Source: a virus. Taken from it: a stretch of 24,811 nucleotides of DNA. The position numbers and the translations under genes were made by a program. Below are positions 2 through 14,071 of this stretch, one piece after another. Under the pieces are notes generated by a model, which was not told where the DNA came from, did no database searches, and worked only from the letters and a program-made list of their open reading frames with translations. How positions within the stretch are numbered: the first letter of the stretch is position 1; each line of letters starts with the position of its first letter. The DNA lies in IMG/VR virus record IMGVR_UViG_3300010354_000609, positions 1 to 24,811 of that record; one strand, given 5' to 3'.

Positions 2-1090
2 TTTACAGGAAAAGAAGGATTTGTGTGGTGGCACGGTGTGGTAGAAGACACCGCCGATCCGTTGTTTTTGGGCAGATGTCGTGTTCGTATTTTTGGATTC
101 CACAGCGAAAACAAAGTAGAACTTCCAACATCGTCTCTGCCTTGGGCGTATCCCATGCAGCCACTAACCAGTGCTGCACTTTCAGGAGTTGGAACTTCTC
201 CTACTGGATTGCTTGCTGGTTCTCATGTGTTTGGTTTTTTCCGAGATGCAGAAGACGCACAAGATCCAGTAATGATTGGATCGTTTGGCGGGTATCCGCA
301 GAGAGAAGCAGACACAAGTATTGGATTTGATGACCCATCGGGCAGATATCCTGCCAAAACAGAAGATGTGGAAAATGGATTGTTTCCAATTGGAGTTTCT
401 GTAGTAAACGAATGTGATACCAACCGTTTGGCTAGAAATGATGCTGATGCTGTTGGAGAGGGCACAGTTGTTCAAAAGAAACTCCAAGAGGTAAAGCAGA
501 ATATCCAAAGCACCCCTGGAATCAAAGACGGCAAATCACAATGGAGCGAGCCTGCCACACCATATAATGCTGTATACCCAAAGAATCATGTTCTGTATAC
601 CGAGAGTGGACATATCAAAGAATACGACGATACCCCAGGTGCTGAACGCATACACGAATACCATAAGTCAGGAACATTTACTGAAGTAGCCAACGGATGG
701 GAAACTAGTCCTGATGGAACCCGTGTTCAGAAGATTGTTGGTGACGATTACGAAATCTGCTTGGGCAACAAAAAGGTATACATTGGCGGTAAAGAGGGCT
801 TGAATGTGGTGGTTGACGGCCCTGTAAATCTCACCATCAACGGAAACGGCAGCAACATTCAGATAGACGGCAACATCAATATCTTTGCCAAGGCTGAAGT
901 GAATCTGCAATGCGAAGGCAAATTCCGAGCGTCAGGCAAGCAGATGGAATTTTTTGCTGCTGACAGTATTGCGTTCTCGGGTAAGACTGTTGAGTTCATC
1001 TCTGACGGTTCTGTTGCAGTGGTTGGAAGCCGTATTGAATTGAATTCTGGTCAGCCTTCTGTTAGACCCTCCAAGGTTCAACTACAATGA
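2..1090 (+). CDS. gp5: gp5-like baseplate hub / tail spike protein, 5' truncated
   Basis: Trimeric central hub and needle of the contractile tail, which carries the membrane-piercing spike. The frame is open to the window edge and reads FTGKEGFVWWHGVVED, so the true start is probably upstream; a GTG at 23 is an alternative start but its SD-like AAGGA (15-19) is only 3 bases away. The N-terminal OB-fold matches T4 gp5: WWHGVVEDTADPLFLGRCRV, then LPWAYPMQPLTSAALSGVG and a GSHVFGFF strand, covering about the first 100 residues. A short charged linker follows. The C-terminal part starts at WSEPATPYNAVYPKNHV, passes through DDTPGAERIHEYHKSGTF and becomes a repetitive beta-prism (short valine/asparagine/glycine strands) to the end. 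The lysozyme domain that T4 gp5 carries between these parts is absent. The stop overlaps the next ATG as ATGA. The family call is sure; the start is not. Confidence 0.92.
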   Translation, partial: FTGKEGFVWWHGVVEDTADPLFLGRCRVRIFGFHSENKVELPTSSLPWAYPMQPLTSAALSGVGTSPTGLLAGSHVFGFFRDAEDAQDPVMIGSFGGYPQREADTSIGFDDPSGRYPAKTEDVENGLFPIGVSVVNECDTNRLARNDADAVGEGTVVQKKLQEVKQNIQSTPGIKDGKSQWSEPATPYNAVYPKNHVLYTESGHIKEYDDTPGAERIHEYHKSGTFTEVANGWETSPDGTRVQKIVGDDYEICLGNKKVYIGGKEGLNVVVDGPVNLTINGNGSNIQIDGNINIFAKAEVNLQCEGKFRASGKQMEFFAADSIAFSGKTVEFISDGSVAVVGSRIELNSGQPSVRPSKVQLQ

Positions 1091-1308
1091 ATTACAGAGG
1101 CGACCATCGCAAATACGAACCAAACACTTCGGTATATCGTGTTTACAATTACGGAGATGTTGTAAAACGGGACGGTTACTATTGGATTTGTGGGATTACT
1201 CAATCCTACGGTTATTTGCCAAGTGAAAGCAATTCTGGATTTACTTTAATGTCTATAACGATTGACCCGTCGCCAAACCCAACAGTAATTGATGGAGGGC
1301 TTGTCTAA
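1087..1308 (+). CDS. small protein, possible carbohydrate-binding-module-like fold
   Basis: A 73-residue protein between the hub and its PAAR tip. Its ATG overlaps the gp5 stop (ATGA) and its TAA overlaps the next ATG by one base, so it is probably translationally coupled to both. The core YNYGDVVKRDGYYWICG resembles the YxxGDxVxYxGxxYxC strand pair of small CBM5/12-like and fibre-associated beta domains. This is a resemblance by eye only, and the protein is too short to assign firmly. It is rich in Tyr, Ser and Pro, with no signal peptide or membrane segment. Its position suggests a small virion or spike-associated protein. The tight overlap and ordinary composition favour a real gene. Confidence 0.7.
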   Translation: MNYRGDHRKYEPNTSVYRVYNYGDVVKRDGYYWICGITQSYGYLPSESNSGFTLMSITIDPSPNPTVIDGGLV

Positions 1309-1568
1309 TGCCAGGAGTTTGTAGGGCTTACATAGATACTGCTGGAGGTACTATTCTTATAGGTGATTCTTCCGTCCTTATAGAAGGACAGCCAGTTGTT
1401 GTTGAGGGCAACCCTGTAGAAAATCACGGAAAAGACGAGCACAGCAACGCAGTTATGATTAACGGTAATCCACGAGTTGTAGTCAATGGAATTCCTGTCT
1501 GCACTGAAGCCAGTCAGGCATCGTGTGGAGATGTTCCAACAGGTTCACCACGAGTAATAATAGGATAA
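1308..1568 (+). CDS. PAAR-domain spike tip protein
   Basis: An 86-residue PAAR-family protein. These form the sharp conical tip that caps the beta-prism of the gp5/VgrG spike and bind a metal near the apex; T4 gp5.4 is the phage counterpart. The whole chain is one PAAR domain: MPGVCRAYIDTAGG, then the paired turns VLIEGQPVVVEGNPV, a conserved His region (NHGKDEHSN), the second turn MINGNPRVVVNGIPVC, and the closing SCGDVPTGSPRVIIG. The visible His and Cys residues (VCR, NHGK, DEHS, VCTE, SCGD) include the likely metal ligands. There is no C-terminal effector extension, so this is a pure tip and not a toxin carrier. It follows the gp5 homologue after one small gene, as expected for partners in one spike. 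The start overlaps the previous stop by one base. Confidence 0.93.
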   Translation: MPGVCRAYIDTAGGTILIGDSSVLIEGQPVVVEGNPVENHGKDEHSNAVMINGNPRVVVNGIPVCTEASQASCGDVPTGSPRVIIG

Positions 1569-2405: not shown

Positions 2406-3055
2406 TAGCGTCTATTTCATCGTATTCAAACTTGATTTATTCCATCGGTGAAATTGTTGGAGTGTTTGTTGTTGGTATTGTTGTTGGTTTTGTGACCACA
2501 ATCAAGAAGAAAAAAATATCTGCTATCGTGCAGAACAGAAAAGAAGAGCGGGCTGCATTATCACACAGCCAAGTTCACGAGTCTCTTACAGAACTTCGTT
2601 TACTGGTTCGTGCTTCACGGGCAATGGTTTTTCAGTTCCACAACGGTGGTAAGTTTGCAGACGGCAGTTCCATCAAACGGTTTTCTGTGACCCACGAATC
2701 TTGTGGAGCAGGAGTTCAGGGAATGCTTTTGGAATCGCAGGATGTGCTGCTTACCCGCTACAAAGAGTTAGTGGATATTTTAGATACCCGCAGTAATAAA
2801 ATAATCAGAACAAGTGACCTGCCCCAGTGCTCGTTTCGTTACGGGCTTGAAATAAATAATGTACTGTGCTTTGCTTTGAGTCCTCTCCGTTGTGAAGACG
2901 GATTGACTCCTATGGGTTTCATATGCTGCCATTGGTGTGATTTTTCAGAATTAGACGCTGTTCACGCAGAAGGAATATCTGAAAATTCTCTTGGAGAAGT
3001 CATTTGCACATCTGCAAAAACAATAAATTCACACCTTACTTTTGGTAAACCGTAA
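2402..3055 (+). CDS. membrane-anchored protein with GAF-like domain (FHNG motif)
   Basis: A 217-residue protein. Residues about 12-34 (IYSIGEIVGVFVVGIVVGF) form one strong transmembrane helix, followed by a KKKK cluster that predicts an N-out, C-in topology. A charged helix (40-70) then leads to a soluble domain whose signature is ASRAMVFQFHNGGKFADG at 71-88, followed by SVTHESCGAG and a C-terminal core strand VLCFALSPLRCEDGLTPMGF. An Arg-rich helix, a hydrophobic strand, FHNG and then SxTxE recall the GAF-like sensor fold; I judge this by pattern only. There are seven Cys (six in the soluble domain, two adjacent at 175-176). It is not a typical structural baseplate protein, yet it is embedded by 4- and 1-base overlaps between tail genes, so it is made at the same time. 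It may act at the inner membrane late in infection; its ligand is unknown. Confidence 0.78.
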   Translation: MIASISSYSNLIYSIGEIVGVFVVGIVVGFVTTIKKKKISAIVQNRKEERAALSHSQVHESLTELRLLVRASRAMVFQFHNGGKFADGSSIKRFSVTHESCGAGVQGMLLESQDVLLTRYKELVDILDTRSNKIIRTSDLPQCSFRYGLEINNVLCFALSPLRCEDGLTPMGFICCHWCDFSELDAVHAEGISENSLGEVICTSAKTINSHLTFGKP

Positions 3056-3465
3056 TGCCCATAAAAATCTCATCATCTCCACAAGAGCCTGTCTACACAG
3101 ACATCGACCCCACCATGACCCGAAATCTAAAGTCGGGAGATGTGAATATCTTAAAAGACACCAAATCCATCAAGACAGCCATCCAAAATCTCCTGTCTAC
3201 CGCGTTTGGCGAGCGGTTGTTTCAGCCACAGGTGGGTGCGTCACTCCGTCCACTACTGTTCGAACCCGTGGATGCCATTACAGCATATGAAATACGAGAC
3301 AGAATTACTGAAACTATCCGAAAGAACGAGCCGCGTGTAAGCAATATAATAGTGGATGTTGTGTCTCCACCTGACTCTAATGAGTATCAGGTAACGGTGG
3401 AATACACTATTCAGTCTATTGGTGCGGTTGAACGGCTAACAACGCTGCTTGAAAGGATACGCTGA
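3055..3465 (+). CDS. gp25: gp25-like baseplate wedge protein
   Basis: A 136-residue homologue of T4 gp25 (132 residues), the conserved wedge protein at the centre of every contractile injection baseplate. It initiates sheath assembly and holds the gp6 dimer to the inner baseplate. The core motif is at residues about 50-71 (AFGERLFQPQVGASLRPLLF followed by EP): it carries the invariant Glu-Arg of the family and the LFEP that precedes the long helix AITAYEIRDRITETIRKNEPRV. The chain then ends in two beta strands (VSNIIVDVV, YQVTVEYTI). The N-terminal PTMTRNLKSGDVNILKD segment is typical of aquatic T4-like phages. It overlaps its neighbours by one base at both ends, and AAAGGA near its end serves gp6. 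Confidence 0.95.
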   Translation: MPIKISSSPQEPVYTDIDPTMTRNLKSGDVNILKDTKSIKTAIQNLLSTAFGERLFQPQVGASLRPLLFEPVDAITAYEIRDRITETIRKNEPRVSNIIVDVVSPPDSNEYQVTVEYTIQSIGAVERLTTLLERIR

Positions 3466-5303
3466 TGGCAGAAAACTCAAACAATTTGAATGTTGTTGGT
3501 CTTGACTTTACCGAGGCAAAAGCGTCTCTACAAGCGTTTCTTGAGTCTCAAAGCACACTAAAAGACTATAACTTCAACGGCTCTGTGTTGAGCACCATTT
3601 TGGATGTAATGGCATACAATACCCATTACCAAAGTTTTTACGCCAACATGGTGGCAAACGAAATGTTCTTGGACAGTGCTGTTACCCGCCCGTCAATCGT
3701 GTCTCACGCCAAGCAGTTGGGATATACTCCACAGTCAGCACGAGCCGCTACTGCCACCCTGACTGTGCCGTTGAGTGGAGTTGCTGCTACCACAAACACC
3801 TATCTGTCTCGCGGAAGTGAATTTATTGGAACCGATGACGAAGGAACCCAATACAAGTTTGTGCTGCTAGACAATGTATACGCAAACACCGAAACTGATG
3901 CGTTTGAAAATATTGATGTATACGAAGGCAGCATTCGCAGAGTAAGTTACATCTACGACCGAAACAAGAAGGACTTCTCTGTTCTGCTGATTCCCAACGA
4001 TAAGATTGACACCACAACCATTCGTGTTCGTGTTCAAGCATCCGTGACCGACACTACAGGTGCTTCTGATGTGTGGAGTGAAGCCACTTCGTATATTAAC
4101 CTGACCCCCACCTCCAAAGTGTTTTTCTTGCAGGAAAAAGAGAAGGGGCTATACGAACTGTATTTTGGCGACGACTTCTTGGGGAAGCAGCCCGCTACAG
4201 GAAATCTTGTTTCCATCGAATATTTGGAAACTAACGGAGCGGTTGCTAACGGAATAGAATCGTTTTCTAGCAATGTAGCAAATTTGGGAACTCCCCAAGC
4301 AGCAGAGCCGTCTTCAGGCGGTGCTGATGCTGAAGCGTCCACTCGTATCAAGTTCATGGCTCCCAAGTACTACAAGTCACAAAACCGAGCAGTGACCGAA
4401 GGCGATTACATCACAGCAGTAAACAAATACTACACCAATGCTGCCTCGGTGTATGTGTATGGTGGAGAAACTACAACGCCTCCACAATATGGAAAGGTGT
4501 TTATTGCCATCAAGCCACAGTCGGGTTCTGCTCTGTCAGACAGCGAAAAGCAGAGTTTGGTTAGAACACTTCGTGAGAACGCATCTGTGATGACAATCAT
4601 TCCAGAAATAGTTGATACAGACTATCTTGACTTGGTAGTGGATTCCAAAATCACATACAACCAGTCTGCTCTAAATATAACACCTGGAACGCTTAAAGCA
4701 CTTGTGGTGTCATATGTGTACTCCTTCTCTAACTTGACTCTAAATTCGTTTGGTTCAAATTTTTATTATTCTCAACTTATCCGTGGTATCAGCAATCTAC
4801 ACCCATCAATTTTGAGCAACCAAACAAAAATAATGTTGAGAAAGACAGTTGAGGTTGGCAGAATCATAGAATCAAAAGGAATCTATATTGATTTCTCTAA
4901 TTCCATTTATCATCCCCATGAAAATCACAGTGAAATCGTGGTGTCATCAAACATGTTCCCACATAAAAATATGGACGGAAATACTGTATACAACTGTATA
5001 TTAGAAGACGATGGGAACGGAAATTTGAATGTGGTTAAATATAATACCCACATGGAAAAAGAAATTATTATGTCTTCCGTTGGAAGTGTAGATTATGCCA
5101 AAGGAATAGTCAGAATGGGTTATAAGTTTGTTCCGCAGATATCTTCCAATCTTGTTTATGGAATAACTATAACTGTAAAACCAGAGAATCAGGATTTGTT
5201 TGTTCGTGAAAATAAAATTATTCGTGTAAACAGAGGCTATTCTGATTCTGTTTCTGTTTCTCTAACGACAGAATCAATTTCTCGTGAAAGTTCTAACACA
5301 TAA
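3465..5303 (+). CDS. gp6: gp6-like baseplate wedge protein
   Basis: A 612-residue homologue of T4 gp6 (660 residues), which dimerises to form the inner ring joining the six wedges; it belongs to the same family as phage P2/Mu gpJ. Diagnostic segments are the N-terminal helix block (TILDVMAYNTHYQSFYANMV, then NEMFLDSAVTRPSIVSHAKQ at about 46-85), which packs against gp25, and the central J-like domain (YELYFGDDFLGKQPATGNLV at about 224-244, then KYYKSQNRAVTEGDYITAVN). A C-terminal beta region follows (NCILEDDGNGNLNVV). The start is fixed by the TGATG overlap with gp25 and the AAAGGA before it. Codons are C-rich in the first two thirds and clearly more AT-rich after about 4650, where the less conserved C-terminal part begins. 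Confidence 0.95.
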   Translation: MAENSNNLNVVGLDFTEAKASLQAFLESQSTLKDYNFNGSVLSTILDVMAYNTHYQSFYANMVANEMFLDSAVTRPSIVSHAKQLGYTPQSARAATATLTVPLSGVAATTNTYLSRGSEFIGTDDEGTQYKFVLLDNVYANTETDAFENIDVYEGSIRRVSYIYDRNKKDFSVLLIPNDKIDTTTIRVRVQASVTDTTGASDVWSEATSYINLTPTSKVFFLQEKEKGLYELYFGDDFLGKQPATGNLVSIEYLETNGAVANGIESFSSNVANLGTPQAAEPSSGGADAEASTRIKFMAPKYYKSQNRAVTEGDYITAVNKYYTNAASVYVYGGETTTPPQYGKVFIAIKPQSGSALSDSEKQSLVRTLRENASVMTIIPEIVDTDYLDLVVDSKITYNQSALNITPGTLKALVVSYVYSFSNLTLNSFGSNFYYSQLIRGISNLHPSILSNQTKIMLRKTVEVGRIIESKGIYIDFSNSIYHPHENHSEIVVSSNMFPHKNMDGNTVYNCILEDDGNGNLNVVKYNTHMEKEIIMSSVGSVDYAKGIVRMGYKFVPQISSNLVYGITITVKPENQDLFVRENKIIRVNRGYSDSVSVSLTTESISRESSNT

Positions 5304-5308
5304 TTCAT

Positions 5309-8300
5309 ATGGTTGATATAAAGAACATAGTATTGAATACTCCTGTTGAAACGCTAGAGCGTTTGTTGTCTCCGTTTATAGAAGAACAGTTTCCTTCTTT
5401 CATGCGTAGAGACTATAGAAAACTAGTTCTCTTTATCAAAGCGTATTATGAGTGGATGGAGCAGAGAGATAACCCTGGATTTGTTTTGTCTCGTTTGGAT
5501 ACCATCTATGATATTGATCGTAGTTTGGAAGAATTTTACAATCACTTCAAAGTAACATATTTGGATGGGTTTCCAGATATTTTGGCAACAAATACAAGCG
5601 GAAACAAACCAAATAAGAATACTCTCTTAAAGCATATACGCGACTTCTACGGTAACAAGGGAACCGAAAACGCCTATAAATTTTTGTTCAGAGTTTTGTA
5701 TGATAGTGATGTAGAGTTCTATTATCCAAAAGAAGATGTACTAAAAACATCAGATGGTAGGTGGGTTGAAAATGTTTCCATAAAAACAACATCTTCTAAT
5801 GGTTCCGTTCTGTTTAACGCTAGAGGAACAACTGTATACCAGTATATCGGAAACGCTCTTGTTGCATCTGCTGATATCGACAGCGTTGTGCAGTACAATC
5901 AAAACGGATACGAGATTACAGAATTTTTCTTGAAAAATTTGATTGGAAATTTTGTTAGTACTGATCCAATCGTTTTACTGATTAACGGAGAGCAGTATAC
6001 TGAAAATTTGTACAGCGTGCTTTCTGAATTTTTCATCGAAACCCCTGGAAAAAACTTTAGAGTCGGTGATGAAGTTTTTATCACAGATGAAAAGGGAACT
6101 GGTTTTTCTGCGTTTATTGAACAGACAGGTCTTGGTGGAACCATAAAGAAAATAGGCGTAAAAAACTCAGGCATCAACTATTTCAACACGGTTACGGTAT
6201 CGTTTATAAGTGAAACAGGAGATTTGAGTTCTGCTGTTGTATTTGCTTCTCCTACTGCGATAACCCGATACCCTGGATTTTATACAAACAATAGCGGAAA
6301 ATTGTCATCTACCAAAAAGATACAGGACGGAAATTATTATCAAGATTTTTCTTATGTTTTAAAAACAGCAGTAAGTCTTGACACCTATTTTCAAATTTTG
6401 AAAGAATTGGTTCACCCTGCTGGAACGCGAATGTTCGGGTCTATTTTGGTCAAAGATGTGTTGCAAAATGAACCAAACACATCTGTTCAAGGCACAGTTT
6501 TCCGAAACCCAATAGTCGGCAATTACACGCCATACGCTCTTCGCACATTCACCAATCTTCGCAACTCGACATTCTTGCCGAATCAAGTTGTTGGTGCAAC
6601 TCTTCAGGTGTGGTTGAGCACATACAATATCAATGGTGGTATTAGTGCTGGATTGACTGCAAATTGGGGTTACATTTTGCAAAATGGAACGATTGGATCA
6701 GACCCAGGTGGCAGAAGTGTAACCGTTGAAGATATTTTTGGTGTAAAGGATTGGATTAGTTTGGTTGGTGGACACACTTTTTCTCATGTGAATCTTTATC
6801 CCAATTCTAATGTTTGGTTGACTCCACATTTCAAGAAAGAAGCAATAAACACACACGCTTCTATAAATTTTAGACCAGTACAATACAACTTTAGTGGACC
6901 ATCACAGTTTAGTTCTCTGTGTTCTCATGGGTTTAGTGGACCGACTATGGGGCGTTTGGGTCTTACAGCATCTATTTCTTATTTTGCTGTAGTAAAACCA
7001 AACAGACTGACTACCGCAAATAATTATGGAGCGTATCAGACTGGTAATGTGTTGCTTGCTGACCACGGTGCTTGGGGTGGTTTGTTTTTTGGAGTGACAG
7101 GAAGCGGAAACAGTTTAAAAGATCCAAAGGTTTTTGCGTATGTTTATGCGTCCGCTTCTGCAATATCTGGTGTTTCTGGTAGCATAGGAACAACTGGTGA
7201 TTGGAAAATAGTTTCTAACACACACAGTATAGGTTCTGGAAATTCTGGACCATTTTCTTTGTTCTTGAACGGTGTGTGCTTGGGAACTGTTTCACAGGCT
7301 TTAGCAAAAAACAACAGTAGCGCAACCGCAACACTAATGATAGGTGTTGCAAAGAACGACTCTTTAAACGGAGCATTTGACGGAGAATTAGCAGAGATAA
7401 TTGCGTATCAAGGCGATGTTGGAGAAATCAACCGACAAAAAGTAGAGGGGTATCTTGCTCACAAGTACGGGCTTGCAGCCAACCTGCCGTCCACCCATCC
7501 GTACAAAACCACACCTCCTGGCGGCTCGTATGGCAGCGGAAAATGGTACGGAAACACAGGCGACTTTTATCCTAGTGGCTACAATCCGTATATTGGCTCA
7601 ACCGCAGAAGTGGGAATAAACGGAACCACTGCTCCTCTTGGTTCTGGATTCTTTTATACTCAACTTGGTTATACTTACACGGTTTGTGATGAGTTTGGCG
7701 TGACTGCACACAACCCTATTGGTGCTCCTCTAGGCAGCACAGCCGCTTGGTTTAGAGGCAGAGAAACCAACTTGTCTCCTGAAGGTATGCGTGGGCTTGT
7801 GTTGTGGCTCAAGCCTGAAAATATTGGTGTTTGTGGTTCTGTGGCGAATGGTGTCAGCGTTGATGTGTGGAGAGACGCATCACCATCAGGCAACGATGCC
7901 ATGCCACCCACATGGGACAAGTGGAACGGTGTCGCGCACATTACGCATACTGCAACTACAATCAGTGGCTGGACAAGACAGGTATATGACAATACAAATC
8001 CTGTCACAAAGATAGCGTTTGTGTTTAATGGTCTGTGTGGGGGATTCACACAGGGTAGACGCTGTAAGGTTGGTTTGAATACTGCTTCAGATGTAACGAC
8101 TGGCAATTATTATCCTGGAAATTGGGTGTATTCTCTCGGTCCAGTGGCAAGTGATACAACTGCCATACGAAGAGTCTATTACATAAACTTCGACAGTTCT
8201 GGCAACTATGAACAATCTAGTGAAATGTCTCCAACAATGGATGGATTCGATAATTCTGTGTTTGAAATGGAATATGTTGAGCCGAATTTGATTTGGAGAA

Positions 8301-11107
8301 AAGACGGCGTGGTAAAGCGTCAGAAGAATGTTGGTTACGGACAAACTTTTTATATGGATTCTGCTTTTTACTTGGAAACAGCAGACTCAAGCAGAACTGG
8401 CACATCAGTAACTATTACTGAACTATCATACAACGGCAACCCAGTAAATCCAACATTCACAGTATCTTCTGGAATGTCTGCCGTTAAATACGCAGGAGTC
8501 ACCGTAGACAAACTTCGTCCAACCCTTCAAACCGCATCAGCCAGCGGTGCTACAGGTGTGTCTTTCAACGGCGGCTTGGTGTTCTCACCACAGACCACAT
8601 ATCGTGGGGTCAGCCTTGCAGCAGGCATCTGCATGGGATTCACCGCAGCAGGTAGTAGTGCTGAAAAACTAATGACAGGTCAACACATGTATCTGAAGCG
8701 TCCTCTAAAGATTACAGACGATGCAGATATTTTTGTGGTGTATCGAAGCACACTAGAAGGTTTAAGTTACGGTTACGGGCTGCTAGCGTCTCGTAATACC
8801 AATGTTGCATACGGAAACAACCTGCGACTTGACTCGGTGCTGTTCAACCGTTCTTACAACGCAGAAGACCGAAATCCGTCACTACAGAACTCTTCGTATT
8901 ACACCATTCTGCCAAATGGAACTGTTCTGTATCCAGGTTCGTCGCTGCCTCCTGTCGGGCTTGTGGGTTTCCGTCCGCAGGGCGATGCTGTTGGAGCAGC
9001 ACAGAATTTTATTGCTTATGACCCACACCTTTCAGGTGTGTGCATGGGAACCTGTATTGGTGAGGCTCGCCGCGATTCTAATAACAAGATTGAGTCGTTC
9101 TTGAACGGAGATATTGCCACAAACTCGTCTCCTGTGACTGGACGCAGAATTGTTTCCGTATCTGCTCCACCAACAGACGATTTCATAATAACAAAAAATC
9201 TTGCAGTTCATTTTGACGCAGGAAAAACTAATTCTACAAGTTCTTTTACAAACGCTTACGATAAAAACCTTTTGTCTCTTTCTTCATTAGTTTTGAAACA
9301 AACGCCTATAAGTGTCATTTATCCAAATCAGGTTTGGAGCACTGATGGTCCTGGTGGTTCGGTTGTGGATTTTGGAGGAGAAACATATGGAACCGAGGTA
9401 GTGTATAAAGTGAATTTGGGCACAGGAACAGACAGATCAGTTTATCTAAACAATTTTGGCGGAACAAGATGGGACACTTCTTCAAGCGGATTAAAATCCC
9501 GCACATGGACTTTTAGCGTTTTGGTAAAAAGAAGTGATGGAGCAGCAATTACATCTGCCTCTGTTGCCATGTATACTGGTTCTTCTTACGGACAAGATAT
9601 CAGTATTGAACCAGCAACAAATATAACACCTGTTGGTAGCGACTGGTATCGGATTACAAGAACGCGAGTATTGAGTGACCCATATGTTCCTACTTTGGTT
9701 GGTCTTGCTTATTTCCAATCAGGAACAAACGAAATTTACATATCGCAAGCACAACTTTTACCGTTTGGTGATACTACAGATTTGTCTGGTATTGGCGGAA
9801 GAACCCTCGGGTCTTATCCATCAGGATATTCTATAAACGGTTCAATATCGAACAATTCTATCATTAGTTCTATAAATCCTTGGGGGTATGAAGAATTTGT
9901 TTGGGACACAAAAAATCACAACACACCAACCAAAACATCGTGGGCAAATGGTGGTTTTGATGTGGTTCCAAGGTTTACAGTAGATAACACTAAAACTTAT
10001 AGATTCTCTATATGGGTAAATAGAAAAGTTCTTGGAACCGATGGACGATTTTATCTTGGAACTTATGGTAGAAATTCTGCTGGAACCAATGTTGGTTTGA
10101 TACAGAGAATCTCGGGCGCAAACGATACCAATCCATATTTTGCATATCCAACACCACAAAGTAGTGCCTTTTCTGGAAAACAAAACCAATGGATATTAGT
10201 TGTTGGTCACATTCATCCCGCTGGAAGTGGTGTCGGTTCTGACCACCCTAATAGTGGATACTATGTTCGCTCTGGTAGTGGTTTGACCTACGCTTCATTA
10301 AGGCTAGCAAACAACAATGGTATGGGAGACTTTGTGTTCAGAACAGATACCCAAAATGTAGCATTTAGAACATATTTGTATTATTGCACAGATAATACTG
10401 TGGTTCAGCAAACGATGCGTCCACGAATTGATTTGGTTGACGGAACAGAACCAACAATAGAAGAGTTACTGAACAATCAAGACAGAACAATCTATGATGC
10501 AAGCCCAAACGGTAAAAATTTTGTGGCTACTAATTTCCCAATATGGTCATCAGAAAACCGTGGTGTTTTAACTTTTAGTGGTAGGAGAGATACTTTAAGT
10601 GCTGCCAATCTAAATGTTCCAAATCCAAACACCATGACATTTGAAGCGTGGATAAATCCAACATCTGTTCCATCAGGGATGTTCATGGGTTTTGGCGGTT
10701 TGCCATATTTTACAACTGATTACGGTAACAGTTATTTTCTTTCTTTAAACATATCAGGAAGACAGGTTGCTTATTCTAATATTGCATCTGGAAAAATTTT
10801 ACCCAATTCATGGCATCATTTAGCAACAACTATAGAACCAAACGATGGTGGAGTGCTCATAAAATCGTATTACAACGGAGAATTGGTGGATACTCGTCGT
10901 GAAATCGGAAACCATGTTTTAGAAAGTGGTAATGTGTTTTGTTTAGGAGACAGATTCCCTTCTTCTGGGTGGTTCCCACCACACATGGACGGAGGAGATT
11001 ATGCGTATAACGGTAAAATTTCAAACGCTAGGGTGTATTCTCGCACACTTACTCCAATTGAAATCAAGCAAAACTTCAACTCTTTGAGAAACAGATTCGG
11101 ATTATAA
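5309..11107 (+). CDS. gp7-position wedge protein fused to multiple LamG/ConA-like lectin domains
   Basis: A 1932-residue protein in the slot of T4 gp7. Residues 1-395 are a wedge-type N-terminus known in aquatic T4-like phages: an N-terminal helix (LVLFIKAYYEWMEQ), IRDFYGNKGTENAYKFLFRV, the FYYPKEDVLKTSDGRWV segment and LVHPAGTRMFGSILVKD. About 428-735 is a first LamG/ConA jelly roll ending in the typical LAEIIAYQGDVGE, GYLAHKYGLAANLPSTHPY tail. About 828-1285 is a second (GLVLWLKPENIGV, DASPSGNDA, then RPTLQTASASG, VSFNGG), interrupted at about 875-1062 by another ConA-like module and lacking its C-terminal strands. About 1291-1932 is a third, starting NLAVHFDAGK, interrupted by two sugar-binding-like modules, resuming at IYDASPNGKNF and finishing normally. 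It should anchor in the wedge and expose lectin-like domains outward. Domain edges are read by eye. Confidence 0.9.
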   Translation: MVDIKNIVLNTPVETLERLLSPFIEEQFPSFMRRDYRKLVLFIKAYYEWMEQRDNPGFVLSRLDTIYDIDRSLEEFYNHFKVTYLDGFPDILATNTSGNKPNKNTLLKHIRDFYGNKGTENAYKFLFRVLYDSDVEFYYPKEDVLKTSDGRWVENVSIKTTSSNGSVLFNARGTTVYQYIGNALVASADIDSVVQYNQNGYEITEFFLKNLIGNFVSTDPIVLLINGEQYTENLYSVLSEFFIETPGKNFRVGDEVFITDEKGTGFSAFIEQTGLGGTIKKIGVKNSGINYFNTVTVSFISETGDLSSAVVFASPTAITRYPGFYTNNSGKLSSTKKIQDGNYYQDFSYVLKTAVSLDTYFQILKELVHPAGTRMFGSILVKDVLQNEPNTSVQGTVFRNPIVGNYTPYALRTFTNLRNSTFLPNQVVGATLQVWLSTYNINGGISAGLTANWGYILQNGTIGSDPGGRSVTVEDIFGVKDWISLVGGHTFSHVNLYPNSNVWLTPHFKKEAINTHASINFRPVQYNFSGPSQFSSLCSHGFSGPTMGRLGLTASISYFAVVKPNRLTTANNYGAYQTGNVLLADHGAWGGLFFGVTGSGNSLKDPKVFAYVYASASAISGVSGSIGTTGDWKIVSNTHSIGSGNSGPFSLFLNGVCLGTVSQALAKNNSSATATLMIGVAKNDSLNGAFDGELAEIIAYQGDVGEINRQKVEGYLAHKYGLAANLPSTHPYKTTPPGGSYGSGKWYGNTGDFYPSGYNPYIGSTAEVGINGTTAPLGSGFFYTQLGYTYTVCDEFGVTAHNPIGAPLGSTAAWFRGRETNLSPEGMRGLVLWLKPENIGVCGSVANGVSVDVWRDASPSGNDAMPPTWDKWNGVAHITHTATTISGWTRQVYDNTNPVTKIAFVFNGLCGGFTQGRRCKVGLNTASDVTTGNYYPGNWVYSLGPVASDTTAIRRVYYINFDSSGNYEQSSEMSPTMDGFDNSVFEMEYVEPNLIWRKDGVVKRQKNVGYGQTFYMDSAFYLETADSSRTGTSVTITELSYNGNPVNPTFTVSSGMSAVKYAGVTVDKLRPTLQTASASGATGVSFNGGLVFSPQTTYRGVSLAAGICMGFTAAGSSAEKLMTGQHMYLKRPLKITDDADIFVVYRSTLEGLSYGYGLLASRNTNVAYGNNLRLDSVLFNRSYNAEDRNPSLQNSSYYTILPNGTVLYPGSSLPPVGLVGFRPQGDAVGAAQNFIAYDPHLSGVCMGTCIGEARRDSNNKIESFLNGDIATNSSPVTGRRIVSVSAPPTDDFIITKNLAVHFDAGKTNSTSSFTNAYDKNLLSLSSLVLKQTPISVIYPNQVWSTDGPGGSVVDFGGETYGTEVVYKVNLGTGTDRSVYLNNFGGTRWDTSSSGLKSRTWTFSVLVKRSDGAAITSASVAMYTGSSYGQDISIEPATNITPVGSDWYRITRTRVLSDPYVPTLVGLAYFQSGTNEIYISQAQLLPFGDTTDLSGIGGRTLGSYPSGYSINGSISNNSIISSINPWGYEEFVWDTKNHNTPTKTSWANGGFDVVPRFTVDNTKTYRFSIWVNRKVLGTDGRFYLGTYGRNSAGTNVGLIQRISGANDTNPYFAYPTPQSSAFSGKQNQWILVVGHIHPAGSGVGSDHPNSGYYVRSGSGLTYASLRLANNNGMGDFVFRTDTQNVAFRTYLYYCTDNTVVQQTMRPRIDLVDGTEPTIEELLNNQDRTIYDASPNGKNFVATNFPIWSSENRGVLTFSGRRDTLSAANLNVPNPNTMTFEAWINPTSVPSGMFMGFGGLPYFTTDYGNSYFLSLNISGRQVAYSNIASGKILPNSWHHLATTIEPNDGGVLIKSYYNGELVDTRREIGNHVLESGNVFCLGDRFPSSGWFPPHMDGGDYAYNGKISNARVYSRTLTPIEIKQNFNSLRNRFGL
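6590..7515 (+). other. LamG/ConA-like domain 1 within the wedge protein
   Basis: Encodes about residues 428-735 of the 1932-residue protein. Its first strand is LQVWLSTYNIN, the sheet region includes INFRPVQYNFSGPSQF, the penultimate strands are FSLFLNGVCLGT and ATLMIGVAKND, and it closes with LAEIIAYQGDVGEINRQKVE and GYLAHKYGLAANLPSTHPY. The FxGxxxEII, YL..KYGL and LPSTHPY signature is what complete copies of this jelly roll in phage fibre and wedge proteins end with. It is therefore a useful internal standard for spotting the truncated second copy. Confidence 0.7.
7930..8495 (+). other. ConA/SPRY-like module inserted inside LamG domain 2
   Basis: Encodes about residues 875-1062. It separates the opening strands of LamG domain 2 (LVLWLKPENIG through SGNDAMPPTWDKWNG) from its continuation (VTVDKLRPTLQTASASG). 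The insert has its own jelly-roll signature: CKVGLNTASDVTTGNYY, then MEYVEPNLIWRKDGVVKR and GQTFYMDSAFYL. These resemble the surface strands of ConA/SPRY-type domains found free-standing in phage adhesins. The boundaries are approximate. Confidence 0.5.
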
Positions 11108-11111
11108 GGAA
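9165..11111 (+). other. putative inserted cassette: LamG domain 3 with two nested carbohydrate-binding-like modules
   Basis: The stretch after the truncated LamG domain 2 up to the next gene start. It opens with the first strand of a LamG domain (NLAVHFDAGK). It then holds a jelly-roll module at about 9400-9780 (GSDWYRITRTRVLSDPYVP, EIYISQAQLLPFGD). A second module at about 9880-10470 follows (TYRFSIWVNRK, FYLGTYGRN, ILVVGHIHPAGSG, YLYYCTD, PRIDLVDGTEPTIEELL), a form recurring in aquatic phage adhesins. The LamG domain resumes at 10470 (IYDASPNGKNF) and finishes at 11104 (ISNARVYSRTLTPIEIKQNF). By eye it is more AT-rich than both flanks (8500-9160 and 11120-11480). Insertion is inferred from the domain order and composition. 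Confidence 0.45.
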
Positions 11112-11117
11112 GCACCA

Positions 11118-11669
11118 ATGGCTGACGATACATTCCTTCCACAACAAGAAGACCTGTTTGCTGCTGGACCAGAACAGTTCAACCCTGTGGACATTATTTT
11201 GGGCAGAATTGGAGCCAATGTTAGTTCGGGTGCAACAGGCACAGGTGTAACAGGTTCGGCTGCGTGGATCACATCGCTTCAAACCAACACCCCATCGTAT
11301 TCGTTCGGTGGCGTAATTAGTGAAATAATTGTGTTCGACCGTAAACTTCAAGAGGAAGAACGCCAACAGGTCTACGGATACCTGTCTCGTAAATACAACC
11401 TAGACTCCAAACTTCCTGATTCATACTACCTGTCACACCCAAGCACAAGCGAGTTAGGTTTAACATATTGGCAGATTGCTCACCACCCCAACTCTAAAGA
11501 CCTGTCTACGATTCCTGATGGTTCAGAATTTGCAGGCATAAATATCACAGATTTTTTCAATATACCAGAACTCATATACAAGTCCAAAGACACCGTTCTT
11601 TCTAGCGGAATCACCCTTGCGGGCGATACATATGGATATCTTGGTGTTAGTGGTGCTACTGGCACATAA
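11118..11669 (+). CDS. C-terminal half of a LamG domain plus conserved-looking tail, possibly split from the upstream gene
   Basis: A 183-residue protein that starts after its own SD (AAGGA at 11106-11110, 7 bases from the ATG). Residues about 25-105 are the end of a LamG jelly roll without its beginning: DIILGRIGANVSSG, then SFGGVISEIIVFDRKLQEEE and GYLSRKYNLDSKLPDSYYLS. This is the part that LamG domain 2 of the upstream protein lacks. The remaining 75 residues (YWQIAHHPNSKDLSTIPDGS, then GINITDFFNIPELIYKSKD) are not LamG and may be the C-terminal part of the ancestral wedge protein. Codons are C-rich in the first half, like the region around 8500-9160. Most likely a functional fragment started separately after an insertion; an independent small lectin-like virion protein is the alternative. 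Confidence 0.85.
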   Translation: MADDTFLPQQEDLFAAGPEQFNPVDIILGRIGANVSSGATGTGVTGSAAWITSLQTNTPSYSFGGVISEIIVFDRKLQEEERQQVYGYLSRKYNLDSKLPDSYYLSHPSTSELGLTYWQIAHHPNSKDLSTIPDGSEFAGINITDFFNIPELIYKSKDTVLSSGITLAGDTYGYLGVSGATGT

Positions 11670-11680
11670 AGGGAGATCCA

Positions 11681-14071
11681 ATGCCTGCTTATCTAAAAGC
11701 GTCAATTAAAAGATCATATGCCGAAGGCTTCCTTAACGAATTGGAACGCAACGATAATCAGTATTTTTTCTTTGTTGCTAAAACAACTGGATGGAGCGAT
11801 GACAACTCTCCACCTGCTCCTGGAACTGCTCAATATCCAGATAGTGATGAAAATGAACGCGAGATAACTCGCAATATTATAGGATATAAAAAATTAAATC
11901 CTAAAAATATTTTGTTTGCTATTCCTCGGTATGAATGGACTAGTGGAACAGTATACGATCAGTACGATGACAGTATTGGTCTATTCGACACAGACGATCC
12001 ACAGATTTTTTATGTTGTCACAGACGAAAACAATTTGTACAAGTGCTTGAGCCGCCCAACGATTGATGGAACATATAATGGACAGGGCAAACCGTCCACA
12101 GTTAAACCTTCAGGAACACTTACTGTACCAGTTACACTAAGTGATGGTTATGTTTGGAAATATTTGGCTACTGTTCGTTCTTCTGACCTACCTTACGAAC
12201 TAACGGACTACATTCCAATTGATTTTGTTTCTAGCAGAGACGATACAGAAACCACTAATCAGTATGCTGTTCAGCAAACTGCTGTTTCTGGACAAATAAC
12301 AAGATTGAACTTTATAACAAATGGTGGGGCCTCTGCCGCTGAATATAACGGCACAGAACTTGCTTTAGGAAATAAACCTATTCGTTTAGGCAGTTACACT
12401 ACAGACGGTGGAATAAAACTTGTAAAAATATTGTCTAGTGATACTGGAAACATAACCGACCCAAATGTTTCAAAAACTGGTTACATTTTGCGAGTAGTGG
12501 AATCAACCACAAATCCACAAACCAACAATAACTACGGAATCATCACCGAAAGTGGATTGACTAATGGAGTGCCGTATTTTATAGTCAGAGACGACGCTAT
12601 TGATTTTTCTGTGACCAACCCAACGCTAAACGGATTGGATTTTACTAAATTTCAAGTTCTGCCAAGAATTAGATTTTTTGGTGACGGCACAGGTGCTTAT
12701 GCTTTCCCTGTAATGACAGGAAAAAAGATTACAGGAGTTCAACTTATAAATGGTGGCGAAGACTATACACAAGCAAGCGCGGCAGTAACAACATCAATTG
12801 CAACACAACCAACAAAAATCCACCCAACAATAACACCAGTTCTGTCTCCTAAAGGTGGTCACGGTAGCAATATTTTGAAAGAGTTGAATGCAAAAGATGT
12901 CATAATTATTGTTGAGGTTTTGGAAGACGATGAGGACAAGTTTATTGGCGGTGGATCGTATCGTCAAATTGGCATAATAAAAAATCCAATACTTAACGAC
13001 TCTTCTAGTTCGATTGCTGGTGCTCAATCTGAATATTACAGAGATGTTTCTTTGTTATACGAAGGAACTGAAACGACTAGAGATTTAGATACTTGGAAAA
13101 TAAATGGTTTTGATGGTTCTTCTAAAAATTTTATATTAGGAACCGAATCTTCCGTTGGTGCAAAAATATCTCAATTGAAGTCTGTATCTACTTTGAACAG
13201 TGAGCGTAGGCTTGTAATCAAGGTAAAAAATATTGGTGGTAATTTCGTAACATATCAAACTAGACCAAACGATTTTATTGTGAATGTTGGAAACCCAACA
13301 ACAGCATCTAATTTCATAGTTGGAGAAGTTGTAACTCAAAACATACCAGCAGGAACGGTAGTCAATTACGGTGGTTTGTCATATGGGTATGCCATAGAGG
13401 CAAGCGGATTATTGGTTAAAAGAGACGCAGCCAATCTAATAATAAGAACCAACAAAAACGCTTTTGTTGCTGGAACACAAGCCATAGTTGGAACCGTGAG
13501 TGGTGCTAGTGCAGCACCATCATCTATTACTCCTCTTTATGGTGAATATGCTTGGATTTATGACAACAACAGAAAAACATTCATCAATGAAAGCGGAGTA
13601 TACGATTTATTCAAAGTGGTGGAAGTTGGTTCTCCGTATTTTGACCTGAATGAAACTCCTGCTTATACAGGGCTAACAGTTTTGGAACTAGGAACAAGCA
13701 TAAGTGGTGTAACTGGTGGACTAGACATTACATCTGCGGAATTAACCCCCAATTCATATTTCAATGGAGATTTTATTCAGCAGGGATTGAGCGGAGACGC
13801 TATTGGGAATTACGCAAACGGCACGGTGTATCATTGGGAATTTATAAATTCGTCCTATGGAAAACTGTATGTGACCGATGTGTTTGGCTCGTTCAGAAGC
13901 GTTGCCAATAATGGACTGACAGGAAGCACTTTGGGGGTACATATAGTAACATCTGTGACCCCACCCGAGATTGATCCTGCTTCTGGCGAAATCATATACA
14001 TAAACAATATACGCCCAATCTCAAGAGTAAAAGGTCAATCTGAAGAGTTCCGCCTGCGACTAGGCTTCTAA
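11681..14071 (+). CDS. gp8: gp8-like baseplate wedge protein, extended
   Basis: A 796-residue homologue of T4 gp8 (334 residues), a wedge component at the baseplate periphery. The conserved part is residues 1-200: the N-terminal helix (RSYAEGFLNELERNDNQYFF), the ILFAIPRYEWTSGTVYDQYDD motif, DPQIFYVVTDENNLYKCLSR and the closing SGTLTVPVTLSDGYVWKYLA. The rest, more than twice the length of T4 gp8 in total, is beta-rich with glycine turns. It includes GVQLINGGEDYTQASAAV, a repeat type seen in extended wedge proteins of aquatic T4-like phages, and ends with RPISRVKGQSEEFRLRLGF. The start has a strong SD (AAAGGGAG, 11668-11675). The gene follows the gp7-position genes as in T4. Confidence 0.9.
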   Translation: MPAYLKASIKRSYAEGFLNELERNDNQYFFFVAKTTGWSDDNSPPAPGTAQYPDSDENEREITRNIIGYKKLNPKNILFAIPRYEWTSGTVYDQYDDSIGLFDTDDPQIFYVVTDENNLYKCLSRPTIDGTYNGQGKPSTVKPSGTLTVPVTLSDGYVWKYLATVRSSDLPYELTDYIPIDFVSSRDDTETTNQYAVQQTAVSGQITRLNFITNGGASAAEYNGTELALGNKPIRLGSYTTDGGIKLVKILSSDTGNITDPNVSKTGYILRVVESTTNPQTNNNYGIITESGLTNGVPYFIVRDDAIDFSVTNPTLNGLDFTKFQVLPRIRFFGDGTGAYAFPVMTGKKITGVQLINGGEDYTQASAAVTTSIATQPTKIHPTITPVLSPKGGHGSNILKELNAKDVIIIVEVLEDDEDKFIGGGSYRQIGIIKNPILNDSSSSIAGAQSEYYRDVSLLYEGTETTRDLDTWKINGFDGSSKNFILGTESSVGAKISQLKSVSTLNSERRLVIKVKNIGGNFVTYQTRPNDFIVNVGNPTTASNFIVGEVVTQNIPAGTVVNYGGLSYGYAIEASGLLVKRDAANLIIRTNKNAFVAGTQAIVGTVSGASAAPSSITPLYGEYAWIYDNNRKTFINESGVYDLFKVVEVGSPYFDLNETPAYTGLTVLELGTSISGVTGGLDITSAELTPNSYFNGDFIQQGLSGDAIGNYANGTVYHWEFINSSYGKLYVTDVFGSFRSVANNGLTGSTLGVHIVTSVTPPEIDPASGEIIYINNIRPISRVKGQSEEFRLRLGF

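Follow-up and report, generated by a model that had tools for sequence, protein, structure and literature searches.

When the host range of T4-like phages is in question, attention usually goes to their fibres, and these phages are known for modular exchange of tail-fibre tips. We analyzed a baseplate gene, gp7, and the short open reading frame (ORF) behind it, ORF183, in a 24,811-base record of an uncultured virus (IMG/VR record IMGVR_UViG_3300010354_000609; the window, meaning this whole stretch), which carries a T4-like baseplate cluster. The locus resembles exchanged fibre tips in that a conserved anchor bears a swapped distal part, and the sister pairs of relatives that differ in this part also differ in their fibre genes. 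However, the exchange occurs here inside a wedge protein, within one folded domain, and alters the number of genes. We consider it fairly likely that, in this phage group, the wedge protein gp7 carries an adhesin cassette that can be replaced and that binds host-surface glycans.

The gp7 of T4 has a homologous core and shares the gene order gp6-gp7-gp8 with the window. However, homology to the window core begins near T4 residue 644, so the extra domains of T4 gp7 lie N-terminal of it, T4 gp7 gave no laminin G (LamG) match, and its domain VI region lacks similarity to the conserved tail motif, or dock, of the window. The gp7 of Prochlorococcus phage P-HM2 (4454 residues) likewise shares the gp7 core and has a long C-terminal extension, but this extension consists of other domains, with no LamG match in the 4376 of 4454 residues scanned. 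The P-HM2 protein (L171:11440-24567; L numbers denote compared loci) has a YHYH domain at residues 975-1106 and a weak CBM_5_12 match, and is another giant gp7 with carbohydrate-related cargo. In jumbo phages and pelagimyophages, concanavalin A (ConA), LamG, and YHYH domains have been described in proteins associated with the tail or the baseplate and proposed to serve host recognition, but the available parts of these reports do not place the lectin-type domains on gp7 and mention neither an exchange hotspot nor a split domain (PMC7824862, PMC7029224). Pelagimyophages are described, in the available part of the second report, as lacking T4 gp7, which is replaced by VrlC (PMC7029224). A 1016-residue 'putative structural protein' between gp6 and gp8 of Pelagibacter phage HTVC008M (L170:8566-11616) matches Pfam Baseplate_wedge (8.3e-13) and looks like a missed gp7, contrary to that account. 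Among non-cyanophage T4-like phages, divergence splits gp7 and further large structural proteins into as many as nine clusters, according to the accessible portion of that work (PMC3037559). Among the open-licence PMC papers listed in literature searches, none showed a lectin on gp7 that is exchangeable or split, and 50,697 phage records contained no match to the LamG2 region (tblastn of L003 gp7 396-969). Carbohydrate-binding domains have already been described for T4-like baseplate modules, and on these searches the exchangeable, gene-splitting gp7 cassette seems to be new.

Core, modules, and split domain of gp7

Through its first ~400 residues, the window ORF is a homologue of T4 gp7, as judged by profile comparison. 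Residues 1-395 match Pfam Baseplate_wedge PF23786 (34.3 bits, cutoff 27) and PHROG 17744 'baseplate wedge subunit' (6e-63), hhalign aligns the core with T4 gp7 644-922 (E 1.2e-7), and a profile built from 40 relatives matches T4-type gp7 in the Protein Data Bank (PDB; 9f4a 733-831, E 3.7e-8). The gene order gp25-gp6-gp7-gp8 is found in the window, with ORF183 intervening between gp7 and gp8. In the cultured Pseudoalteromonas phage XG4, the ORF at the gp7 place has only 419 residues, and therefore the cargo behind the core is dispensable for a wedge; the corresponding ORFs of Stenotrophomonas phage Marzo and Pseudomonas phage pf16 have 503 and 523 residues.

We compared the modules of 29 complete gp7 genes, comprising the window and 28 relatives, in 17 of which the dock is fused to gp7 and in 12 of which it is split off as a separate gene. 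The relatives are those that remained from 46 with core identity above 50% when the window's own copy and 17 genes cut by contig ends were dropped. Conservation of the architecture in these 28 other genes excludes chance as its source. Beyond the core, the window gp7 contains three LamG/concanavalin-type domains and three other beta-rich modules, M2, M3a, and M3b (Table 1). The block at residues 1287-1932 is restricted to the 12 split genes, in a long form of ~600-675 residues in ten of them and a short form of ~220-235 residues in L102 and L105, where it is an uninterrupted LamG domain. Alignment with this short form places the first strand of the window LamG3 at 1287-1309 (ungapped score 49; the best of 500 shuffles scored 37) and the remainder at ~1743-1932, and a structural alignment of the window model spans model residues 552-1192 with only ~190 residues aligned. 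Therefore, M3a and M3b lie inside LamG3, which is in turn inserted in LamG2, as is M2. When viral contigs were scanned with the 1287-1932 block, one pattern match and no relative was found. LamG2 has a further insertion site, with ~200 extra residues at window gp7 ~1098-1115 in L117, L104, L082, and L005 (L117:5083-5763, approximate).

Fold assignments draw on Pfam and on AlphaFold2 models of gp7 396-1303 from the relative L085 and of gp7 740-1932 from the window. Laminin_G_3 (PF13385) is the sole Pfam lectin-type family in the window gp7, with 83.3 bits for the whole protein (cutoff 27.6), its best stretch at 1761-1920, and 71.9 bits for the segment holding LamG3. The family also matches LamG1 of L085 (31.4 bits), and the window LamG1 and LamG2 segments scanned alone gave no Laminin_G_3 match. 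The models suggest ConA-type folds for LamG1, via L085, and for LamG3. LamG1 aligns with the domain 4 region of arabinanase AbnA (VIA Z 18.5, 200 residues, 2.5 Å) and with the tailspike chain of cyanopodophage Pan3 (Z 17.3, 236 residues, 4.4 Å), and LamG3 gives Z 20.5 over 189 residues at 2.5 Å; these VIA lists cover model residues 22-355 (L085) and 552-1192 (window) and barely test the rest. Botulinum, tetanus, and sialidase names among the structure matches are fold matches only. LamG2 is predicted from sequence to be a LamG domain: its last 35 columns align with LamG1 (E 5.6e-7), and a profile of its C-terminal part matches LamG1 in several gp7s (e.g. the window's own copy L001, 659-730, i-E 8e-9). 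M2, M3a, and M3b appear beta-rich in the window model, and their profiles gave no significant match in the PDB. M3a alone has a named relative, the head spike fibre family of the Rhodobacter capsulatus gene transfer agent (RcGTA; NF048003, GTA_spike_fiber), for which six of seven M3a rows give E<=0.01 (best 5.2e-10), with the window's M3a under the family cutoff. The tagged RcGTA protein (rcc01080) binds capsulated cells, as stated in the available part of the report, but it belongs to the head of that agent and not to a baseplate wedge (PMC10218006).

LamG2 is split across two genes in the window, with most of the domain in gp7 and its last strands in ORF183, together with the gp7 tail motif. 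The gp7 C-terminus of L003 and L117 shares 61-62% identity with ORF183 residues 18-180, and in both proteins the ORF183-like part comes soon after the counterpart of window gp7 ~1283-1286; this homology rules out an unrelated small gene. In the model of the fused L085 gp7, the position of the gene-split junction (about model 731-751) falls between strands of one confident region (681-830, block predicted local distance difference test score, pLDDT, 65-92), with block pLDDT of 85-92 flanking it on either side, and ORF183 would therefore supply the last LamG2 strands and a helix. The relatives contain 57 distinct docks, of which 28 are fused in gp7, 24 form a separate gene, and 5 are not surely classed. 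The gap between gp7 and the separate dock gene is 2-18 nt in all 24 split loci, a recurrence that rules out an assembly or sequencing artefact as the source of the split. All 36 aligned rows, among them the short gp7s of distant relatives, have the HPN of the dock unchanged. A comparison of the dock with T4 gp7 domain VI showed no similarity, and neither gp7 nor ORF183 matches PF21456, the C-terminal domain VI of T4 gp7. An insertion of ~85 residues breaks up the tail motif in L109 (L109:11861-16222; profile matches 1200-1324 and 1410-1452).

An earlier reading of the window made from its letters alone (the sequence-only reading) had described a single protein at 5309-11669, wedge-type over its 395 N-terminal residues, placed between gp6 and gp8, and otherwise mostly a chain of lectin-like folds. 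The wedge assignment and the placement hold. The single protein proves to be the 1932-residue ORF at 5309-11107 followed by a separate 183-residue gene, the detached gp7 tail, with gp7 stopping at 11105 and the next gene starting at 11118, an arrangement repeated in the 24 split loci. The chain of lectins is borne out in part, by the modelled LamG1 and LamG3 and the predicted LamG2; Pfam names Laminin_G_3 only, and the other three modules are just beta-rich.

Exchange of the gp7 interior

Trees of different parts of gp7 disagree about the split. On the gp7 core tree, the distribution of fused and split genes needs seven changes, at least five of them forced by starred branches. Placing all split rows in one core clade is rejected (p value of the approximately unbiased test, p-AU, 1.5e-56), as is holding the window and L084 together on the core tree (p-AU 1.1e-5). 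By contrast, the tree of LamG2b, built from 25 rows and omitting four fused rows with too little overlap, needs one change (support 100/99), which recurs in 100% of 200 bootstrap trees. In a larger sample, eight changes are needed on the core (46 rows) against one on LamG2b (48 rows; Shimodaira-Hasegawa-like approximate likelihood-ratio test, SH-aLRT, 92); no row of the 48-row tree was omitted for coverage, and 5 of the 24 split docks lack an upstream gp7 complete enough to enter it. On the C-terminal tree, made without L109, L019, and L086, the window and L084 tails group with fused kin (92/99).

The window is itself a mosaic in these alignments. Its identity to the fused L003 is 85% in the core, 48% in LamG2b, 36% in ORF183 17-68, and 74% in ORF183 69-183, and to the split L086, L088, and L116 it is 59-61%, 65-68%, 65-75%, and 55-67% over the same four parts. 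The tree conflict and the mosaic together indicate that phages exchange a cassette reaching from the interior of LamG2 to about ORF183 residue 65-69. About one origin accounts for the split arrangement, which then spread by this exchange of cassettes.

Eight pairs of relatives have core identity of at least 88%. In seven of them LamG2b identity is 37-59% and LamG2a identity 87-98%, and the eighth pair is near-identical (LamG2a 100%). The cores of L085 (fused class) and L086 (split) are 98.5% identical, with LamG2b at 40%. Sequences of 94.2% and 93.6% identity in L003 and L117 flank a gp7 stretch of 749 nt (L003) or 1877 nt (L117) that blastn leaves unaligned as a block. In L104 (fused) and L084 (split), sequences of 89.2% and 84.3% identity surround a stretch that ends near ORF183 residue 65 and measures 1426 nt in the former and ~2.75 kb in the latter. 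As a control, L097 and L099, which are both split, are 86.5% identical in the rest of gp7 and 86.6% in the core, with no excess divergence. Therefore, the change is replacement and not fast point mutation.

The same close relatives differ in their fibre genes. All divergent blocks of at least 150 nt between L117 and L003 (three of three) and between L104 and L162 (five of five; L162 is 99.99% identical to L084) lie in the gp7 interior or in homologues of the 931- and 785-residue fibre genes. One block extends ~40 nt beyond the end of the 931-residue homologue, and in the L117/L003 comparison ~650 nt of the 19.1-kb contig fall in neither compared piece. The gp25, gp6, gp8, and 1696-residue genes contain no such block in either sister pair. 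Exchange of the distal part between close relatives, which marks receptor-binding proteins, was thus found for gp7 of the window group.

A candidate recognition locus and its alternatives

In the mechanism that we propose, the ~400-residue core would build the wedge and the conserved dock would close gp7, both keeping gp7 in the wedge. The conserved first and last LamG2 strands would form a socket, at whose shoulders the interior and the plugged-in modules would be exchanged by recombination. In the window allele, the plugged-in block (LamG3 with its two nested modules) would bring a stop codon and a new start, so that gp7 would end in LamG3 and ORF183, as a second polypeptide, would complete LamG2 and add the dock; the two would then reassemble in the baseplate. 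The LamG2 interior and plugged modules would face outward, probably in six sets per virion (six gp7 copies being an assumption carried over from T4), and the lectin faces would most likely bind host-surface glycans (capsule, lipopolysaccharide, or exopolysaccharide) before or alongside the fibres. More tentatively, and with slightly less than even confidence, we suggest that gp7 is a second host-recognition locus beside the fibres, an exchangeable-interior lectin with conserved edge strands that an inserted module cuts into two genes in nearly half of lineages and that would be assembled in trans, the smaller product holding the docking tail.

Several points weigh against this proposal. Sugar binding and the virion location of the gp7 cassette are predictions. 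Confidence in both models is modest (mean pLDDT 67 for L085 and 55 for the window). The ConA fold of LamG2 is a prediction from sequence: the VIA list covers L085 model residues 22-355 only, and neither a profile search of the PDB with LamG2 nor a Pfam scan of gp7 residues 740-1286 gave a match. M3a of the window scores below the NF048003 cutoff of 36 (33.4 bits alone, 28.2 in the whole protein), and a shared fold is by itself no demonstration of sugar binding. The dock has no similarity to the last 113 residues of T4 gp7 (920-1032; hhalign E 0.56). The split/fused branch of the 48-row LamG2b tree, at SH-aLRT 92, is under the starred level, and the C-terminal tree, few of whose branches are strong, needs two changes. 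Physical linkage would also cause LamG2b and ORF183 17-68 to be inherited together, so their co-inheritance is no proof of contact.

The strongest evidence for a recognition role is the co-location of gp7-interior and fibre divergence. Adaptation of gp7 to fibres that had changed could produce this pattern too. The lectin-type folds would then be structural, stabilising the baseplate or setting its periphery, and their diversity would come from loose constraint together with co-fitting to swapped fibres, which also predicts that fibre genes change in the same pairs. ConA-type folds can indeed act as protein-protein modules. However, the modules are freely present or absent on near-identical cores, and gp8, gp6, and gp25 are free of divergent blocks in the same pairs; we regard a purely structural role as unlikely. 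It is improbable that ORF183 and the LamG2 half in gp7 are decaying remnants of an insertion-broken gene that do not reassemble in trans. A domain cut within its fold does resemble the result of a disruptive insertion, but the 24 separate docks are each an intact ORF of 172-181 residues, the branches of the split allele run deep on the 25-row LamG2b tree, and the ratio of non-synonymous to synonymous substitution rates (dN/dS) between the window and L084 ORF183 is 0.069, with dS saturated, as in several pairs (dS over 1, or -1). Just as improbable is a depolymerase-like or trimming enzyme set in place of a binder: sialidases and arabinanases with ConA-type domains are among the top fold matches, but AbnA, the top match, is matched only in its separately solved domain 4, complexed with arabino-oligosaccharide, and scans of the window proteins against Pfam, NCBIfam, and PHROGs found no catalytic family for the cassette. 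Adhesion to mucus, particles, or aggregates instead of the host cell would share the same anatomy and is very improbable, because exchange in step with the fibre genes points to host recognition.

An adhesin cassette on gp7 agrees with the sequence-only reading in its outline, a possible adhesion device in the baseplate, insofar as gp7 carries appended ConA-type folds that may serve adhesion. The check that it proposed, for faster change in the lectin part than in the N-terminus, turned out in its favour in seven of the eight close pairs, with wholesale replacement as the mode. Its 'dozens' of potential sugar-binding faces would need all six modules to bind sugar in six copies per virion and are not supported as worded, and independence from the fibres, in the evolutionary sense, is not supported either, because the sister pairs with a divergent gp7 interior have divergent fibre genes as well.

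If the cassette on gp7 is indeed an exchangeable adhesin, gp7 has to be considered whenever the hosts of uncultured phages are predicted. The coexistence of split and fused forms amounts to a natural experiment, in which the same LamG domain occurs as one chain or two on near-identical cores (L085/L086), and the assembly in trans of a folded lectin is therefore directly testable. The exchange takes place inside a folded domain, where the edges of that domain are conserved, and not between domains.

Gene neighbourhood and coordinates

Judged by gp6, the closest cultured phages are only ~36% identical to the window. Scans of the window for repeats, promoters, terminators, and Rfam families gave short or chance-level matches at most.

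Table 1 Features of the window and of the gp7 and ORF183 products
Feature	Position	Strand	Remarks
gp5-type hub	2-1090		baseplate cluster
PAAR	1308-1568		baseplate cluster
gp25	3055-3465		baseplate cluster
gp6 homologue (wedge)	3465-5303	+	directly upstream of gp7; PHROG 219 E 4.5e-160, Pfam Gp6-like_1st
gp7 ORF, 1932 aa	5309-11107	+	between gp6 and gp8 homologues
Wedge core, gp7 residues 1-418	5309-6562	+	homologous to T4 gp7 ~644-922; in 29/29 compared gp7 genes
M1 = LamG1, gp7 residues 419-738	6563-7522	+	in 8/29, missing from 21/29
LamG2a, gp7 residues 739-872	7523-7924	+	conserved LamG2 entry, left recombination shoulder; in 29/29
M2, gp7 residues 873-1060	7925-8488	+	inserted within LamG2; in 12/29
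LamG2b, gp7 residues 1061-1286	8489-9166	+	LamG2 interior, two allele classes (split/fused); in 29/29, four only partly
LamG3 first strand, gp7 residues 1287-1309	9167-9235	+	start of block inserted in LamG2
M3a (GTA head-spike-like) and M3b, gp7 residues 1310-1742	9236-10534	+	nested in LamG3
Rest of LamG3, gp7 residues 1743-1932	10535-11104	+	gp7 C-terminus; Pfam Laminin_G_3 71.9 bits; VIA Z 20.5
gp7 stop to ORF183 start	11105-11120	+	TAA, AGGA-like ribosome site, and ATG within 16 nt; 10 nt between genes
ORF183, 183 aa	11118-11669	+	between gp7 and gp8
ORF183 residues 1-16	11118-11165	+	own N-terminus, without counterpart in fused gp7
ORF183 residues 17-93	11166-11396	+	predicted last LamG2 strands and terminal helix; right recombination shoulder ~65-69
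ORF183 residues 94-183	11397-11669	+	conserved gp7 tail motif (dock, with YWxIxHHPN)
gp8 homologue	11681-14071	+	downstream neighbour; PHROG 438 E 5.6e-74, Pfam Phage-Gp8
DUF4815/PHROG 358 protein, 1696 aa			same cluster
Fibre-like protein, 931 aa	19353-22148		
Collar-domain fibre, 785 aa			

The 931-residue protein has no family match at the thresholds used. Close relatives share 66-70% identity with it over residues 1 to ~770 but diverge at the C-terminal end, so this protein is probably a fibre whose tip can be exchanged. The window gp8, with 796 residues, is more than twice the length of T4 gp8 (334 residues from its coordinates).

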